A stretch of DNA of 39,374 nucleotides from the NCBI GenBank assembly GCA_011048995.1, contig DSCS01000052.1, positions 1-39,374 on the forward strand. The letters run 5' to 3'. The translations under genes were made by a program, and so were the position numbers. This DNA is from Bacillota bacterium (GTDB taxonomy: Bacteria > Macinerneyibacteriota > Macinerneyibacteria > Macinerneyibacteriales > DSCS01). Below are positions 30,873 to 39,374 of the stretch, piece by piece (position 1 is the first letter of the stretch; every line of letters starts with the position of its first letter). Below the pieces are notes generated by a model, which saw only the letters and a program-made list of their open reading frames with translations, had not been told where the DNA came from and did not search any database.

Positions 30873-32258
30873 ATGAGATTATCAATTTACGGGGCAGCCC
30901 GGACGGTAACAGGGTCAAAACATCTTTTGGAAACAGCCGGGAAACAGCTTCTCGTCGATTGCGGTCTCTTCCAGGGCAAGAGAAAAGAGGCTTTCGAAAT
31001 GAACAAAAAGCTGGAGGGCATCGAACCGGAGGCCGTAGACGCCGTTCTTTTGACGCACGCCCATATAGATCATTCGGGAAGCATCCCCACATTGGTCAGC
31101 CGTGGTTTTGAAGGGGATATTGTTTGTACCCATGCGACCCGGGATTTGGCCAATATTATGCTCAGGGATTCTGCGCATATCCAGGAATTCGATGTGGCTT
31201 ATGTGAACAAGAAAAGGGCCAGGCAGGGGAAAAACCTGTTTGAGCCGCTTTACGTCATGGATGATGCCATTAAAGCCCTTGAATATTTCGTCAGTTATAA
31301 TTATAACCGGATATTTTCTCTGAACGACGATGTCAACCTGAAATTTTATGATGCCGGCCATATTTTAGGCTCTGCTATGATCATGGTTCAATCGGAAGGG
31401 AAGAATATTCTCTTTTCCGGAGATCTGGGACGGAATCATCTCCCGATTCTGAAAGACCCTGATGCTGTCGATATCCCGACAGATTATCTGGTGATCGAAA
31501 GCACATACGGGGACCGCCTTCATGATAATATTGAAAACATGGAAAAAGACTTGGGCCGGATTATCAGCAAAACCGTTAACCGGGGAGGAAAAGTCATTAT
31601 TCCTTCTTTCTCCGTAGGGCGGACACAGGAAGTCGTCTACGCTTTGCACCGGCTCTTTCTCCGTAAAGAGATCCCCGATGTCCCTGTCTTTGTGGACAGC
31701 CCCCTCAGTGTCAATGCGACATCAGTGTTCCGCCTTCATGCGGAATGCTTTGACAGGGAGACACAAGATTTCCTCATCAAAGAGGGGGACCCGTTCGGCT
31801 TTGATTCTTTACGTTATATTCAGCACGTGGAAGATTCGAAAAAGCTGAATGATTCTGATGAGCCTATGGTGATTATTTCGGCTTCGGGCATGGCGGAAGC
31901 CGGACGCATTCTTCACCATTTGAAAAATAACATTGAAGATGAGCGCAATACTGTTCTTTTTGTGGGTTTTCAGGCTCAAAATACTTTGGGTAGGAAAATA
32001 TTGACAGGGGAGAGCCCTGTGAAGATATTCGGAGAGCCTTATGAAGTCCATGCCGGAATCGAGCGCATTGAGTCTTTTTCTGCTCATGCGGATCGGGATG
32101 AATTATTGGGCTTTGTCAGAAACTTAAAAACACAGCCTAAAAAAATCTTTGTGGTTCACGGAGAAGAAGATTCCGCCTTGGCGTTTGCTGAATCCCTTAG
32201 ACAAATAACGCCTGCAGAGGTCTTTGTCCCTGAGATGGGAGAATCCTTCGAGCTTTAG
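30873..32258 (+). CDS. Metallo-beta-lactamase/beta-CASP RNA-processing nuclease
   Basis: 461-residue cytoplasmic enzyme of the CPSF73-like beta-CASP family, whose bacterial members process or degrade RNA. The metal motifs are H62-x-H64-x-D66-H67 in THAHIDH, AGHILGSAM, SGDLGR, and a C-terminal SAHADRDEL with VVHGE. The beta-CASP insert has ESTYGDR, PSFSVGRTQEV and the ISASGMAEAGRILHHL segment. KH-type or RNase J-specific C-terminal extensions are absent, so this is closer to the short TTHA0252-like group than to RNase J. It is one base downstream of thyX, and its substrate RNA is unknown. Confidence 0.9.
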   Translation: MRLSIYGAARTVTGSKHLLETAGKQLLVDCGLFQGKRKEAFEMNKKLEGIEPEAVDAVLLTHAHIDHSGSIPTLVSRGFEGDIVCTHATRDLANIMLRDSAHIQEFDVAYVNKKRARQGKNLFEPLYVMDDAIKALEYFVSYNYNRIFSLNDDVNLKFYDAGHILGSAMIMVQSEGKNILFSGDLGRNHLPILKDPDAVDIPTDYLVIESTYGDRLHDNIENMEKDLGRIISKTVNRGGKVIIPSFSVGRTQEVVYALHRLFLRKEIPDVPVFVDSPLSVNATSVFRLHAECFDRETQDFLIKEGDPFGFDSLRYIQHVEDSKKLNDSDEPMVIISASGMAEAGRILHHLKNNIEDERNTVLFVGFQAQNTLGRKILTGESPVKIFGEPYEVHAGIERIESFSAHADRDELLGFVRNLKTQPKKIFVVHGEEDSALAFAESLRQITPAEVFVPEMGESFEL

Positions 32259-32282: not shown

Positions 32283-32310
32283 TTGACAAAGGAAGAAGGG
32301 CCATTATAAT
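32283..32310 (+). promoter_or_regulatory. Consensus sigma70-type promoter of the tRNA-Arg unit
   Basis: TTGACA at 32283-32288 and TATAAT at 32305-32310 match consensus perfectly with a 16-base spacer. The start is expected near 32317, only about five bases before the mature tRNA 5' end at 32322. It is the strongest promoter in the window. Confidence 0.88.
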
Positions 32311-32321
32311 ACTGCTCGTAC

Positions 32322-32394
32322 GTGCCCGTAGCTCAATGGATAGAGCGACAGACTCCGGATCTGTAGGCTGAAGGTTCGACTCCTTTCGGGCACA
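32322..32394 (+). tRNA. tRNA-Arg (anticodon CCG)
   Basis: A 73-base cloverleaf folds completely: acceptor GTGCCCG with CGGGCAC, D stem GCTC/GAGC, anticodon stem ACAGA/TCTGT with loop CTCCGGA giving anticodon CCG (reads CGG), five-base variable loop AGGCT, T stem GAAGG/CCTTT with loop TTCGACT, and discriminator A. The 3' CCA is not encoded; TTG follows. It decodes a single arginine codon. A protein gene begins 22 bases after its 3' end without any visible terminator. Confidence 0.96.
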
Positions 32395-32415
32395 TTGCTT
32401 TTGGCAGGGAAAACA

Positions 32416-33747
32416 ATGAAAAAAAAAATCTCAAAGGGCATTATCGCCCTCATTTTTCTTATCCTCTTCATCATCGGGGCATACTATTATTTCAATCGTG
32501 GCCAGGCTCCTGATTATTTCCCCGATGACACAGTGGCTTTTGCAAAAATCCGATCTTTTAAATCTTTTCTTCATTTAGATTCCCCTGTTATCGACCAATA
32601 TATCGGTGATTTTAAAGATAAAGCATGGATCCGCTGGCTTCCCGATAAGGATTTTTATGTGGCGGTGGATAAAGAGAAGAATTATTATATTTTTATCGAA
32701 CTTTCTTTTCTGGCTCCGCTTTTAAAATCATTGGGAACCGTTGAGGGGAATATTCTATGTATTTCCAGCAATCCCGGCTATATTCTGAAACCGGGTTCTG
32801 TTCATCCCCGGCAAAAAGAACGAATGAAGGGCGGCGGAGATCTGCGCTTTGTTCTGAACAAATCCGATGAGTTTTTTCCTGAGATCGAGGCCGGTGACAG
32901 CATATGGGGAAGGGCCGATGTCTTAAAAAAGCATAATGCTGTGAAGATATCCTATTCTTTTGAGAACCCTCTGAGAGGGGAAGCAGGGCAGGCGGCAGCA
33001 GAGAAAAGCCTGAAATATGTTCCTGCAGATGCTAATTTTCTCCTAAAAGTCAACATGTCTGATTTTGAGAAACATTACGCTCGTTTGCGTAAAATGGTTT
33101 TTTCCACACAGTTGTTTCAAAATTTTTTAAAAACCCGTAAAAATGTTTTTGAAAAAACAGGAATCGACATTGAAAAGCAGATCATGCCCCTTTTGGAAAA
33201 GGGGATGCTCATCGGGGCCCGCAACGGAGATGATTATTTTGCTGTCATGGGAAAAGAAGAGGGCTCCCGTGAAATGGCCGCCATGGCCCGTGAACTGGAA
33301 AAACGTTACCCCGTAGCCTTCAGGGAGAGGGATTTTGACGGCATCAAAGCCACCACAGTCGAGATAACGGGAATTACAGGGGTTTTGGCCAGAAGTTTTT
33401 TTAAAAAGAAAATAGAAGGGGTGAAAAAGCCTTATTATCTTCCGATGGATGACTATCTTCTTTTTTTTGACAGTCTACCGGCTGTGAAGATCTATCATAA
33501 CAAAAGGTTGACCATCGGTATACGCCCTTCTTCCCGCCCCGGGGAGTTCATCAAAGGCCTTATGGCGCGGCCGTCTCATCTCAGTCTCTATATGGACAGT
33601 CTCTATCTCAATGCTGTTTACCCCGATGAGAGTGTATTTAATAATTTTTCCAGGATTTTTATTTCAGCAGACTTTGCTGAAAGAGAGATCCAGGGCGATG
33701 TTGTCATTAAATTGAAGCGAAACATTCAAACGGAGGATGATGTATGA
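32416..33747 (+). CDS. Unrecognised membrane-anchored protein
   Basis: 443 residues that I do not recognise with confidence. A short basic start (MKKKISK) and one hydrophobic helix (GIIALIFLILFIIGAYYYF, about 8-26) suggest a signal anchor, with the remainder outside the cytoplasm. Two similar openings, YFPDDTVAFAKI near residue 35 and YVPADANFLLKVNMSDFEKH near 205, suggest two related domains. They resemble the pattern of DUF3352-type periplasmic proteins; this is only a resemblance. No enzyme motif is visible. I use ATG 32416, five bases after AGGGA (32406-32410), rather than a TTG abutting the tRNA. The stop overlaps the ackA ATG as ATGA. Confidence 0.75.
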   Translation: MKKKISKGIIALIFLILFIIGAYYYFNRGQAPDYFPDDTVAFAKIRSFKSFLHLDSPVIDQYIGDFKDKAWIRWLPDKDFYVAVDKEKNYYIFIELSFLAPLLKSLGTVEGNILCISSNPGYILKPGSVHPRQKERMKGGGDLRFVLNKSDEFFPEIEAGDSIWGRADVLKKHNAVKISYSFENPLRGEAGQAAAEKSLKYVPADANFLLKVNMSDFEKHYARLRKMVFSTQLFQNFLKTRKNVFEKTGIDIEKQIMPLLEKGMLIGARNGDDYFAVMGKEEGSREMAAMARELEKRYPVAFRERDFDGIKATTVEITGITGVLARSFFKKKIEGVKKPYYLPMDDYLLFFDSLPAVKIYHNKRLTIGIRPSSRPGEFIKGLMARPSHLSLYMDSLYLNAVYPDESVFNNFSRIFISADFAEREIQGDVVIKLKRNIQTEDDV

Positions 33748-34943
33748 AAATTTTAGTGCTTAATTCAGGGAGTTCTTCCATCAAATTTCAAATGTTGGAT
33801 ATGGCCACGAAAGAGACTCTCATCAAAGGGCTTGTGGAACGCATCGGGTTGGAAGAATCTTTGATTTCCTGGAAATCAGGCGGGGAGAAGTATAAAAAAA
33901 CAATGCATTTCCCCGGGCATAAGGAGGGATTAGCCGCAGTGTTGGATATATTAAAGGATCGTGATCACGGGGTCATCTCAGATTTTAATGAGATCGATGC
34001 TGTGGGACATCGCTATGTCCATGGTGGAGAGATCTATAAGGATTCCGCTGTTGTCACAGAAGAGGATATTGCGGCGTTGGAAGGGCTGAATCACCTGGCT
34101 CCCCTTCATAATCCGCACAATTTAGTGGGTGTCAGGGCTATGCTGGAACTGATTCCCCGTGTTCCCAATGTGATCGTCTTTGACACCTCTTTTCATTCGA
34201 GGATGCCCGAGAAAGCCTATATGTTTGCGTTACCGTATGAGCTTTATGAAAAGTACGGTATTCGCCGTTACGGTTTTCACGGGACTTCTCATCACTATGT
34301 GGCTTTGGAAGCAGCTTCAATGATCAATAAACCTTTTGAGAAATCCAAAATCATCACCTGTCATATGGGGAACGGGACCTCTTTCAGCGCTGTTCAGAAC
34401 GGCCATTCCGTAGACACCTCGTTAGGCTTCAGTACAATGTGCGGTATTCCCATGGGAACACGAGCCGGAGATTTCGACCCGGGGATTTTGACTCATCTGC
34501 TCAATACCGGAGATTTCACTTCTGATGACTTACATGACTTGATCTACAAAAAAAGCGGAATGCTGGGAGTTTCCGGTATCTCCAGCGATATGAGGGATAT
34601 CGAACAAAAGGCATGGAATGAAAAAGATAAAAGGGCACAGCTGGCCCTTGATCTTGTCCATTATCATGCAAAAAAATATATCGGGGCGTATTTATCTGTG
34701 ATGAACGGCGCCGATGCTTTGGTTTTCACCGCAGGCATCGGAGAGAACGGATGGGAGACCCGCGAAGAGATCTGCAGTGACATGGAATTTTTAGGGATTC
34801 AGATCGACAGGGAGAAAAACAAGGTCCGGGGAAAAAGAGTTGATATATCAGCTCCCGGAAGCCGTGTTAAAGTCCTTGTTATCCCTACCAATGAAGAGCT
34901 TATGATTGCCGAAGAGACGTTGTCCTTGACTCAAAACAGGTAA
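33744..34943 (+). CDS. ackA: Acetate kinase
   Basis: Interconverts acetyl phosphate plus ADP with acetate plus ATP, the ATP-yielding end of fermentative acetate production. The 399-residue protein has [11 protein letters not shown] at the start, [40 protein letters not shown], the [25 protein letters not shown] segment in two parts, and FTAGIGENG near the end. All are acetate-kinase-family signatures, and the length is typical. GGAGG at 33732-33736 is well placed. No pta is adjacent. Propionate kinase is a near relative and would also suit the downstream propionyl-CoA genes. Confidence 0.94.
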
Positions 34944-34953
34944 GGAGGCTATT

Positions 34954-36627
34954 GTGGAGGAATTCAAAAAAATAAAGAAAGCTCATGACCAATGGGAAGA
35001 GACGACAGTCAAAAAGGTTACCAGCCGCTTTCCCGAAAGAAAAGAGACCTTTGTCACAGGCTCAGATATTCCCGTAGAAAGGGCTTATTACCCCGCTTCC
35101 TTTGATGAGGAAAAATGGAATGAAGAAATCGGGTTCCCCGGCGAGTATCCTTTTACTCGGGGTGTTCAGCCTACGATGTATAGAGGACGCTTTTGGACCA
35201 TGCGTCAATATGCCGGGTTCGGGACGGCAGAGGAGTCCAATAAACGTTATAAATACCTTTTGGAGCAGGGTCAGACAGGGCTTTCTGTGGCTTTTGATTT
35301 ACCTACACAGATAGGGTATGATTCCGACGACAATATGAGTATCGGAGAAGTGGGGAAGGTCGGTGTCGCTATTGATACGTTAAAAGATATGGAGATCCTT
35401 TTCGACGGGATTCCCCTGGATAAGGTCTCCACATCGATGACGATCAATGCCCCGGCATCAGTCCTTTTGGCGATGTACATTGCCGTAGGTGAAAAACAGG
35501 GAGTTTCCCGGGATCAATTGAGAGGCACCATTCAGAATGATATTCTCAAAGAGTATATTGCCCGCGGGACATATATTTTTCCTCCCGAGCCTTCAATGCG
35601 GTTGATTACCGATATTTTTGAGTTTTGTTCTCAGGAAGTCCCTAAATGGAACACCATCAGTATTTCCGGATATCATATCAGAGAGGCTGGCTCAACAGCC
35701 GTTCAGGAAGTGGCTTTTACCATCGCCGACGGCATGGAATATGTCAATGCAGCTGTTAAAGCGGGGTTGGATGTGGATCAATTCGCCGACAGACTCTCCT
35801 TCTTTTTTAATGCCCACAATGACCTTTTGGAAGAAGTGGCCAAATACAGAGCCGCTCGTCGGATCTGGGCTGTCATTATGAAAGAAAGATTCAAAGCGCG
35901 CTCGTCGAAATCTCAGATGCTGCGTTTTCATACCCAGACCGGCGGCTCTACGCTCACAGCTCAACAGCCGGACAATAATATTGTCAGGGTGGCGATTCAG
36001 ACTTTGGCTGCCGTGCTGGGTGGTACACAAAGCCTGCACACCAATTCCAAAGATGAAGCTTTGGCCTTGCCGACAGAGGACTCTGTGCGCATTGCATTAA
36101 GAACCCAGCAGATCGTAGCTCATGAGTCCGGAGTGGCCAATACGGTGGATCCTTTAGCCGGGTCTTACTATGTTGAGGAATTGACCAATAAGATCTATCA
36201 TGAGGCCATGGCTTATATTGAAAAGATTCAGGAGATGGGCGGCATGGTCAAAGCAATAGAGAAGGGTTATGTGCAAAAAGAGATTCAGGATGCCGCTTAC
36301 CGTTATCAGAAAGATGTTGAAAAAGGAGAGCGTATTGTCGTCGGAGTGAATAAATTTGCCGTAAAAGAAGAAGCCCCGAAGGATCTTTTAAAAATGGATC
36401 CTACGCTGCGTGAAATTCAAATCAAAAAACTGGCCCATATCAAACAAGAGCGTGATAACGAGGCCGTCCGCCGCTCTTTGCAAAACTTGGAGGAAGCGGC
36501 GAAACGGAGCGATGTAAATCTGATGCCTTTGATCATAGAAGCCGTCAAAGGTTACGCCTCATTAGGGGAGATCTGTAATGTGCTCCGCGATGTTTACGGT
36601 GAGTATCGCGAGTCCATTGTTCTTTAG
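34954..36627 (+). CDS. mcmA1: Methylmalonyl-CoA mutase, large (substrate-binding) subunit
   Basis: Catalytic barrel subunit of the two-subunit adenosylcobalamin mutase that interconverts succinyl-CoA and (R)-methylmalonyl-CoA. The 557-residue protein shows [61 protein letters not shown] and [17 protein letters not shown]86 and R204 correspond to the tyrosine and arginine that select methylmalonyl-CoA, rather than the Phe/Gln pair of isobutyryl-CoA mutase, and H241 is the conserved active-site histidine. The C-terminal B12 domain is absent and supplied by the next gene. The start is a GTG with AAGGAGG five bases before it. Confidence 0.93.
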
Positions 36628-36641
36628 AGGAAGGGGACGTC

Positions 36642-37040
36642 ATGAAAGAAAAAAAATTGAGAATACTGATTGCCAAGCCCGGACTGGACGGACATGACCG
36701 CGGGGCTAAATATGTCGCCAGAGCTTTAAAAGATGAAGGCTATGAAGTGATCTATACCGGAATCCGTCAGACAGCGGAGAGTATTGTCAAGACGGCGATT
36801 CAGGAAGATGTCGATTTTGTGGGGTTAAGCCTTTTGTCCGGAGCCCATAATGAACTCTTTCCAAAAATCGTGGAACTGCTGAAAGAAAACGATGCCGAAG
36901 ATATTGTAGTCTTTGGGGGCGGTGTCATCCCGGAGGAAGATATTCCTTTCCTCCGGGAGAAGGGGATTCAGGCTGTTTTTACGCCGGGGACTCCTATTAA
37001 GACGATCGTTGATTTTATTGAATCCCAAAGGAATGATTGA
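36642..37040 (+). CDS. mcmA2: Methylmalonyl-CoA mutase, small B12-binding subunit
   Basis: 132-residue cobalamin-binding Rossmann domain that completes the mutase. The base-off/His-on motif is D16-G-H18-D-R-G21 in KPGLDGHDRGAKYV, followed by GLSLLSGAHNEL and VFGGGVIPEEDIP, the lower-ligand and tail-binding segments of B12 domains. Length matches the small subunit of split mutases. A GAGGAAGGGGA site precedes the ATG, and the gene lies 14 bases after the large subunit. Confidence 0.94.
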   Translation: MKEKKLRILIAKPGLDGHDRGAKYVARALKDEGYEVIYTGIRQTAESIVKTAIQEDVDFVGLSLLSGAHNELFPKIVELLKENDAEDIVVFGGGVIPEEDIPFLREKGIQAVFTPGTPIKTIVDFIESQRND

Positions 37041-37044
37041 GTAG

Positions 37045-38001
37045 ATGAGAGACTTAGCCCGTGATATTGTCCTGGGGAAGACCCGGGCTATTGCCCGGGG
37101 TATTTCTCTGGCCGAAAATGACAGCCTGGGACGTGAAGAACTCATTGACCTGCTTCATCCCCATACGGGGAAAGCAAGGATTTTGGGGATCACAGGCCCT
37201 CCGGGAGCAGGAAAAAGCACATTGGCTGATCTTTTGATTGCCGGAGAGCGCCGCAAGGGCCATAAAGTGGCTGTCGTGGCTGTAGATCCCAGTTCGCCCT
37301 TTACCGGAGGGGCTCTTCTCGGTGACCGGTTGAGAATGCAATCCCATGCAGAGGATGAGCATGTCTTTATCCGGTCCATGGCTTCACGGGGTCATCTCGG
37401 CGGAGTTTCACGGGCTACGGTCGATGCTATTAAAGTTTTGGATGCGGCCGGCTTTGATACTGTGATCGTCGAGACGATCGGCGTGGGACAGACAGAAGTC
37501 GATATCATCGAACTGACAGACCTTGTCCTGTTGGTTCTGGTCCCCGGAATGGGAGATGAAATACAGGCGATGAAAGCCGGAGTCATGGAGATCGGCGATA
37601 TTTTCGTCATCAATAAAAGCGATAAAGAGGGGGCCGATAAGCTTCGGACGGAAGTGGAGTATGTCCTGGGGTTTAAATATGCCCATGAAATGGAGAAGAT
37701 GAATCCTGTCTGTATGGTTTCGGCCAAAATGAAGCAAGGCTTGGAGGCGTTGGAAGAGGAAGCCGAAGAATGGTTTCAGCATCTCAGCCTTTCCGGACTT
37801 TTGGAGCAAAAAAGAAAAGAACGGATACAGAAAGAGCTAAAACGCATCTTTTCGGCAAAAATCCATGAATTGCTTGACAAAAAAATGGATTTTTATAATA
37901 ATGTGGAGGAATGGGCGGAGATGATCTATCAGAAAAAGGTTCAACCTTACCGTTTTATAAATGAAAGTTTGCACGATTTTTTAAAAAAGGAGAGTGAATG
38001 A
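37045..38001 (+). CDS. meaB: MeaB/ArgK-type GTPase, mutase chaperone
   Basis: G3E-family P-loop GTPase that guards cofactor loading and integrity of the B12 mutase. The 318-residue protein has a Walker A GPPGAGKST at 51-59, VDPSSPFTGGALLGDRLRM, the VETIGVGQTEVDI switch region and the base-recognition motif NKSD. The helical C-terminal dimerisation part (from about 255) is present. It starts four bases after the small subunit with no obvious ribosome-binding site, so coupling is likely. The stop overlaps the epimerase ATG. Confidence 0.93.
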   Translation: MRDLARDIVLGKTRAIARGISLAENDSLGREELIDLLHPHTGKARILGITGPPGAGKSTLADLLIAGERRKGHKVAVVAVDPSSPFTGGALLGDRLRMQSHAEDEHVFIRSMASRGHLGGVSRATVDAIKVLDAAGFDTVIVETIGVGQTEVDIIELTDLVLLVLVPGMGDEIQAMKAGVMEIGDIFVINKSDKEGADKLRTEVEYVLGFKYAHEMEKMNPVCMVSAKMKQGLEALEEEAEEWFQHLSLSGLLEQKRKERIQKELKRIFSAKIHELLDKKMDFYNNVEEWAEMIYQKKVQPYRFINESLHDFLKKESE

Positions 38002-38411
38002 CTATGATCAGAAAGATCAACCATGTCGGAATCGCCGTCTCGTCTTTGGATGAGCATATTCCTTTTTACCGTGATGTCTTAGGTTTGACGTTCGCCGGTA
38101 CAGAGGAAGTGCCCGGGCAGAAAGTGCGGGTAGCGATGTTTCAAGTGGGTGAGGTCAAAATCGAACTTTTGGAGCCCCTTTCAGAAGAGAGTCCCATAGC
38201 CAAATTTATTGAAAAAAAGGGGGAAGGGATTCATCATCTTGCTTATGAGACCGATGATATTGAAAACGAACTGGAGGGAATGAAAGCTAAAGAAATACGC
38301 TTGATCGATGAAGAGCCTCGACACGGGGCTCATGGGAGCCGTATTGCTTTTCTTCATCCCAGATCATCTGCCAAAGTATTAACAGAATTATGCCAATCCG
38401 GAGAGGAGTAG
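37998..38411 (+). CDS. mce: Methylmalonyl-CoA epimerase
   Basis: Vicinal-oxygen-chelate metalloenzyme that interconverts (R)- and (S)-methylmalonyl-CoA, joining the mutase to the biotin carboxylase/decarboxylase. The 137-residue protein has INHVGIAVSSLDEHIPFYRD with a metal histidine, GEVKIELLEP, GEGIHHLAYETDDI with the second histidine, and LHPRSSAKVLTEL with a glutamate ligand. GGAG at 37989-37992 lies five bases before ATG 37998, preferred over the second ATG at 38004. Length and motifs fit the family. Confidence 0.93.
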   Translation: MTMIRKINHVGIAVSSLDEHIPFYRDVLGLTFAGTEEVPGQKVRVAMFQVGEVKIELLEPLSEESPIAKFIEKKGEGIHHLAYETDDIENELEGMKAKEIRLIDEEPRHGAHGSRIAFLHPRSSAKVLTELCQSGEE

Positions 38412-38415
38412 GATT

Positions 38416-39374
38416 ATGTCCATCGACCGCAAAATTTTGGATTTGAAAGAAAAAATGGAAAAGTCCCGTTTCGGGGGCGGAGCACCCGCTATCGAAAAAC
38501 AGCATGCCCGGGGGAAAATGACTGCACGGGAACGTATTGAACTGCTTATGGATCAGGGGAGTTTTGAAGAGATCGATGCGTTGAGGACTCATAACTGTAA
38601 TGAATTTGGTATGGAAAAGAAAAAATATTACGGAGACGGAATGGTGACAGGATACGGTACCGTTGAAGGGCGCCTGGTCTTTGTCTATTCCTTTGATTTT
38701 ACGGTGATCGGGGGGTCTCTTTCTGAAACTGTAGCGGCGAAAATCGTAAAAATCATGGAGATGGCTGCCAAAACCGGGGCTCCGATGGTGGGGATCAATG
38801 ATTCTGGCGGAGCACGCATTCAGGAAGGTGTCGGAGCATTGGCCGGATATGCGTCCATTTTTTACCGCAATGTCATGTATTCGGGCGTTGTGCCCCAGAT
38901 CACGGCTATAGTGGGGCCCGCTGCAGGCGGGGCTGTCTATTCTCCTGCAGTGACGGATTTTATCTTCATGGTGAAAGAGACGTCTCAAATGTTTGTCACC
39001 GGCCCGAAGGTGGTAAAGGCCGTTACACATGAAGATGTGACCAAAGAGGAGTTGGGCGGAGCGATGGTCCATGCGACAAAAAGCGGTGTGACCCATATGA
39101 CTTATGATAATGAAAAGGACCTTTTTGAAGGAATTCGTGCTCTCCTCTCTTATCTGCCGCAAAACAATACCGAAGAGCCGCCTGCGTCCAACACGGAAGA
39201 CCCGGTGGACCGTGTTGATGAGGAGCTGAATTATATTATTCCTGATAACCCCAATAAGCCCTATGATGTCAAAGATATCATTACCCGAATCGTAGATGAC
39301 GGAAAGTTTTTTGAAGTGCAGGAGTATTATGCTCCCAATATTGTGATCGGTTATGGGCGTTTAAACGGAAAAAG
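38416..39374 (+). CDS. Acyl-CoA carboxyltransferase beta-type subunit (PccB/MmdA), 5' part
   Basis: The frame is open from ATG 38416 to the window end, giving 319 residues of a roughly 515-residue protein. KQHARGKMTARERIELLMD, GDGMVTGYGTVEGRLVFVYSFDFTV, GINDSGGARIQEGV and IVGPAAGGAVYSPAVTDF are crotonase-fold carboxyltransferase signatures. The family covers propionyl-CoA carboxylase beta and methylmalonyl-CoA decarboxylase alpha (sodium pump); position after mutase and epimerase fits both, and the missing downstream genes would decide. A weak AGGA site lies just before the start. The 3' end is cut by the window. Confidence 0.92.
   Translation, partial: MSIDRKILDLKEKMEKSRFGGGAPAIEKQHARGKMTARERIELLMDQGSFEEIDALRTHNCNEFGMEKKKYYGDGMVTGYGTVEGRLVFVYSFDFTVIGGSLSETVAAKIVKIMEMAAKTGAPMVGINDSGGARIQEGVGALAGYASIFYRNVMYSGVVPQITAIVGPAAGGAVYSPAVTDFIFMVKETSQMFVTGPKVVKAVTHEDVTKEELGGAMVHATKSGVTHMTYDNEKDLFEGIRALLSYLPQNNTEEPPASNTEDPVDRVDEELNYIIPDNPNKPYDVKDIITRIVDDGKFFEVQEYYAPNIVIGYGRLNGK

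Follow-up and report, generated by a model that had tools for sequence, protein, structure and literature searches.

Mixed operons that begin with a tRNA gene are already known. A paper on E. coli tRNA operons states, with Inokuchi and Yamao (1995) cited, that the tRNA genes of the mixed operons known are always the first (PMC1183518), and in the metY-nusA-infB operon of E. coli, which the tRNA also leads, tRNA and mRNA are reported by citation to be separated through a cut by RNase III (PMC2777011). The tRNA(Tyr-Gly-Thr)-tufB and tRNA-Trp-secE-nusG clusters of gammaproteobacteria have been described as kept over long times (PMC8765398), and the trl locus of Helicobacter pylori as co-transcribed with tRNA-Gly (PMC3120642). 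In mitochondria and in the Plasmodium apicoplast, excision of tRNAs is described to make the ends of mRNAs, an arrangement called tRNA punctuation (PMC4995348).

Here we describe a locus of Candidatus Mcinerneyibacteriota in which a gene for tRNA-Arg(CCG) stands before an ORF of its own lineage, ackA and the genes of a methylmalonyl-CoA mutase pathway. This Arg(CCG)-ORF-ackA case is new, and no study of the operon was found in the literature searched, which took in few subscription papers. The window, i.e., the whole stretch of DNA that was analyzed (39,374 nt), is an entire contig, one of the 75 that make up a 1.88-Mb genome. Among the matches listed, the closest named relatives of its ackA lie on JAFGWL010000056.1 (87% identity) and on VSIX01000003.1 of Mcinerneyibacterium aminivorans (65% identity). 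These two loci, from the same genus and the same order, respectively, and both from Candidatus Mcinerneyibacteriota MAGs, were used for comparison (L004 and L005). We read the locus as a tRNA-led mixed operon, with one promoter for the tRNA, the ORF, ackA and the mutase pathway and with excision of the tRNA by RNase P and RNase Z, and give this reading a probability of about three in four.

Promoter, tRNA Gene and Leader

All features described here lie on the forward strand of the window. The sigma70-type promoter (32283..32310) consists of a -35 element (TTGACA, 32283-32288) and a -10 element (TATAAT, 32305-32310) that are separated by 16 nt and match the consensus at 12 of 12 positions in our consensus scan, in agreement with the perfect pair that an earlier note on this DNA had placed before the tRNA. 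Spacers of 16 nt are typical of stable-RNA promoters. The exact combination TTGACA-N16-18-TATAAT occurs this single time in the window, against a mean of 0.02 in shuffles. The gene for tRNA-Arg(CCG) follows at 32322..32394 and was recognized by both ARAGORN and the Rfam model RF00005 (70.9 bits). Its discriminator base is A32394, with no CCA encoded 3' of it; the tRNA thus belongs to the 41 of 43 tRNA genes in this genome without an encoded CCA. The genome carries a gene for RNase Z (G000:C3:84440-85255), scoring above cut-off, and one for RNase E/G too. RNase Z is described to cleave tRNAs that lack CCA directly 3' of their discriminator base (PMC8549757), so that with the CCA-less tRNA and the enzyme both present, as RNase Z cleavage would require, such a cut would here create the 5' end of the mRNA.

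The start codon of the next gene (ATG, 32416) is separated from the tRNA by a 21-nt leader (32395..32415), the 22nd base after the tRNA being the first coding base. This corresponds to the protein gene start 22 bases downstream of the tRNA, with no intervening terminator, that had been proposed earlier: the scan of the window revealed no clear terminator between tRNA and ATG, as a weak terminator-like match at 32374-32391 is the T-arm of the tRNA itself and another match at 32435-32450 is located within the ORF. The best site for a second promoter with its -10 element in the 3' half of the tRNA or in the gap scored 7/12 in the consensus scan of the window, and a promoter-like site at 32401 (9/12) starts in the gap and has its -10 element within the ORF. 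Judged by these consensus scans only, a promoter precedes the tRNA and neither a terminator nor a good promoter precedes the protein gene. With a protein gene shortly behind the leading tRNA gene and co-directional with it, the locus has the layout of a tRNA-led mixed operon. The Shine-Dalgarno sequence of the 443-aa ORF is weak, which counts against the tRNA-led model.

Upstream of the promoter, and 63 nt before the tRNA, ends a metallo-beta-lactamase (MBL) gene (30873-32258) encoding beta-CASP and RNA-specificity domains, with a homolog at the same place in the same-genus relative and none at the M. aminivorans locus.

Several further roles for the region were considered and rejected. The tRNA is the sole Rfam match above gathering score in the window, which leaves no candidate attenuator or riboswitch among these families. 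A structured leader was likewise discarded: over its first 66 nt, the putative mRNA is no more stably folded than shuffled sequences (z -0.86), and the 5-pair hairpin at the extreme 5' end is made mostly of G-U pairs. As for a link through codon usage, the operon shows no enrichment in CGG, to which tRNA-Arg(CCG) corresponds, with 2 such codons in the ORF, 1 in ackA and 5 in the mutase gene, versus 9 in the MBL gene and 14 in thyX.

Protein-Coding Genes of the Putative Operon

The ORF behind the leader (32416..33747) encodes a 443-aa protein with a hydrophobic N-terminal stretch. A search of 98 genomes recovered it from three, its own included, and among these genomes it is restricted to the phylum. 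No family of Pfam or NCBIfam matched the protein above cut-off. DUF3352 (PF11832) was rejected as an assignment, since it reached 13.0 bits versus a gathering cut-off of 26.8 (E 0.04), and one of the three members of the protein family has a match of any kind to it. An AlphaFold model built on the alignment of three rows has a mean pLDDT of 50.9, too low for a fold search.

The ackA gene for an acetate/propionate family kinase (33744..34943; TIGR00016) starts within the end of the ORF, the two sharing an ATGA at 33744-33747, and the 4-nt overlap claimed beforehand was recovered exactly. The large (N-terminal) chain of methylmalonyl-CoA mutase (34954..36627; TIGR00641) begins with GTG at 34954, 10 nt after ackA, and is followed 14 nt further by the B12-binding C-terminal chain (36642..37040; TIGR00640); both gaps lie within the 15 nt given in the earlier note. 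The gene for the mutase-associated GTPase, meaB (37045..38001; PF03308), comes 4 nt after the B12-binding chain and overlaps by 4 nt with that for methylmalonyl-CoA epimerase (37998..38411; TIGR03081). At the end of the cluster, an mmdA-like gene (38416..39374; TIGR01117, 468.6 bits over positions 2-315 of 512) is truncated by the contig end and for this reason does not reach the full-length cut-off of 998.8.

In a search of the genome, ackA was the only gene for an acetate/propionate kinase to score above the family cut-off, which gives more weight to the question of how this operon is driven. A second, weak match to the ackA family (79.5 bits, below cut-off) lies at G000:C6:4046-4585 (L304) and is perhaps a kinase of the butyrate type.

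Conservation in Related Genomes

All three ORF-carrying genomes keep the order of promoter, tRNA-Arg(CCG), ORF, ackA and mutase gene, and TTGACA-16-TATAAT precedes the tRNA in each of them. The earlier note had suggested looking for the same tRNA position in relatives, and tRNA-Arg(CCG) indeed stands before the ORF in both. The gap between tRNA and ORF measures 21 nt in the same-genus relative, as in the window, and 21 or 27 nt in M. aminivorans, where two ATGs are possible; the ORF and ackA share 4 nt in the former and are 3 nt apart in the latter, whose ORF protein shows 28% identity. Upstream of the promoter, M. aminivorans carries atpD and a gene for a TrmN-like methyltransferase in place of thyX and the MBL gene, and since these neighbors differ, the conserved block starts at the promoter.

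Between the window and the same-genus relative, 318 of 802 four-fold sites are identical (40%). The two sequences share 19 of 21 leader positions, 11 of 11 positions from the -10 element to the tRNA and all 73 of the tRNA itself, versus 11 of 24 between the MBL stop and the -35 element. That the leader has stayed so similar despite four-fold identity of 40% points to selection acting on tRNA and mRNA as one unit. When the 27 tRNA units common to this genome (G000) and that of the same-genus relative (G001) were ranked, the trailer of tRNA-Arg(CCG) was the fourth most conserved, and the three better-conserved trailers contain, in our own reading, hairpins or a terminator.

The arrangement was also sought around ackA more widely. 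Among 80 ackA loci examined of 138 found, some of which end at contig ends, nine have any tRNA gene, and a co-directional tRNA at most 2 kb upstream of ackA was present only in the two Mcinerneyibacteriota loci, these also being the only ones with Arg-CCG before ackA (2/80). Arg(CCG)-ORF-ackA was thus seen only in this phylum among the loci examined.

Other tRNA Genes Preceding Protein Genes

Within the genome, the next gene is co-directional for 18 of 25 usable tRNA units, and for nine of the 25 it lies at most 50 nt away without a terminator; an intrinsic terminator follows the unit in 8/25 by our scripted rule. The same measure gave 6/20, 2/29 and 0/23 in the control genomes G012, G014 and G064, each represented by its 30 best-scoring tRNA loci only. 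With gene starts set by a simple rule throughout, the rate of tRNA-led genes in this genome is high but not unique. Inspection by eye reduced the nine by three, the Phe and Pro-GGG units for -10-like sequences in the gap and the Val unit for lack of a Shine-Dalgarno sequence, and added the Thr block before tuf, near a contig end, and Trp-secE, for a final tally of eight. Besides the Arg(CCG) locus these are Gly-CCC-guaB, Ser-CGA-murI, Leu-UAG-tig, Leu-CAG with an aminotransferase-like gene, Arg-CCT with a gene of unknown function, Trp-secE and Thr block-tuf. In the other tRNA-led genes (among the tRNA units L084-L107), the distance from tRNA to gene is 15-45 nt with no terminator, and their leaders are less similar between the two same-genus genomes than 32395-32415.

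A same-order relative, 88% complete (G002), has a counterpart for five of the nine units. The downstream gene is kept in four of them (Arg-CCG, Gly-CCC, Arg-CCT and Leu-UAG), the upstream gene in none of these four, and the Pro-GGG unit shows the reverse, with its upstream gene kept and its downstream gene not. When all units are compared with this genome, downstream genes are kept in 7/15 and upstream genes in 6/17, with no general downstream excess, so that this neighbor test is only suggestive. A co-directional tRNA-Leu(UAG) gene lies no more than about 0.4 kb ahead of tig at 17 of 30 loci from diverse genomes (L243-L272; 15 of 28 outside the genus), which looks like an old tRNA-led operon. 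Gly-CCC stands before guaB only at the two Mcinerneyibacteriota loci among 30 guaB loci, and one locus (L283) has Asn-GTT there.

We entertain, as a speculation more doubtful than probable, that Mcinerneyibacteriota might use tRNA genes as growth-linked starts of key operons, namely those of EF-Tu, SecE, trigger factor, IMP dehydrogenase, glutamate racemase and acetate/propionate kinase with mutase, with 5' ends made by RNase Z and stable-RNA promoters co-controlling energy metabolism and translation.

Proposed Expression of the Locus and Alternatives

In the model that we favor, one strong sigma70-type promoter would transcribe tRNA-Arg(CCG), and RNA polymerase would run on into the ORF and the ackA, mutase, meaB, epimerase and mmdA genes. 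The tRNA would be excised from this transcript by RNase P and RNase Z and later receive its CCA, presumably from a CCA-adding enzyme, whereas cleavage between 32394 and 32395, directly behind the discriminator base, would leave an mRNA with a 21-nt leader, in which the shared ATGA would couple translation of ackA to that of the ORF. That tRNA and protein genes are transcribed together appears well supported by comparison, because the same unit is found in three genomes, the leader is conserved between the two closest, no clear terminator is present and the gap holds no good second promoter in the window or in the same-genus relative. We infer that the most likely mRNA 5' end is 32395, made by tRNA 3' processing as the earlier note proposed; RNase E/G could make other mRNA ends. 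The supply of fermentative enzymes may plausibly be tied to a stable-RNA promoter, as the note also suggested, and the operon may respond to growth rate.

The locus might instead consist of two adjacent units, the tRNA transcript ending by Rho or at an unrecognized signal and ORF-ackA being served by a promoter inside the tRNA, the ORF or ackA. Promoter-like sites of 9 to 10 of 12 do occur in the window, at 33617 in the ORF, at 34411 in ackA and at 34926 just before the mutase gene, and the AT-rich ORF of M. aminivorans holds 16 such sites scoring at least 9. Yet the ORF of the same-genus relative contains no promoter-like site of 9 or more, the window site at -127 from ackA is absent from that genome, and the scan found no clear terminator after the tRNA. 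A separate promoter after the tRNA was what the earlier note had named as evidence against its proposal. This objection has little force for the window and the same-genus relative, in which the gap reaches 7/12 at best, and more for M. aminivorans, where a 9/12 site with a 19-nt spacer lies at the tRNA 3' end, in the gap region. On balance, we consider two separate units unlikely.

It seems less likely still that the tRNA is internal to a longer transcript coming from thyX and the MBL gene, with the perfect promoter supplementing read-through. All of thyX, MBL, tRNA and ORF are co-directional, no terminator was apparent in the scan from the end of the MBL gene (32258) to the promoter, and the MBL gene holds a promoter-like site at 32001 (10/12), but M. 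aminivorans kept the promoter-tRNA-ORF block behind other upstream genes, and the stretch from the MBL stop to the -35 element is conserved no better than at the neutral rate (11/24). As to a chance neighborhood without joint transcription, retained by slow rearrangement only, close tRNA-gene neighbors are also common in the compact control genome G012 (6/20 units); a unit kept across two families, when four-fold identity is already down to 40% within the genus, and with a conserved leader, makes this explanation highly improbable. We regard the conserved, lineage-specific tRNA-led operon as real, and read-through from upstream genes as well as weak internal promoters may contribute to its expression.

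Comparison With Known Systems

In this genome, from a little-studied phylum, the sole acetate/propionate kinase found is encoded behind a tRNA promoter, so that a link of energy metabolism to stable-RNA output becomes open to testing. The locus suggests that tRNA-led operons can extend past translation genes and that selection may hold them down to the leader sequence. Its importance is moderate because the general arrangement is known.

As in the metY-nusA-infB operon of E. coli, as described, a tRNA leads a protein operon; there it is cut from a joint transcript, and here we infer its excision. The two differ in their other genes and in the nuclease, RNase III in E. coli and RNase Z expected here, since tRNA-Arg(CCG) has no encoded CCA. 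The gammaproteobacterial tufB and secE clusters resemble our locus in that tRNA genes directly precede protein genes, and both pairs are also present in this genome, but those clusters, as reported, lead genes of translation and secretion, whereas tRNA-Arg(CCG) leads a lineage-specific ORF and a fermentation pathway. The trl locus of H. pylori is described as a small locus between two tRNA genes for which co-transcription was shown, unlike the metabolic operon presented here, whose co-transcription is predicted from sequence. Finally, tRNA punctuation in organelles is, in the account cited, an organelle-wide processing of polycistronic transcripts, whereas the Mcinerneyibacteriota locus would be a single unit of promoter, tRNA and operon with putative processing at the tRNA 3' end.
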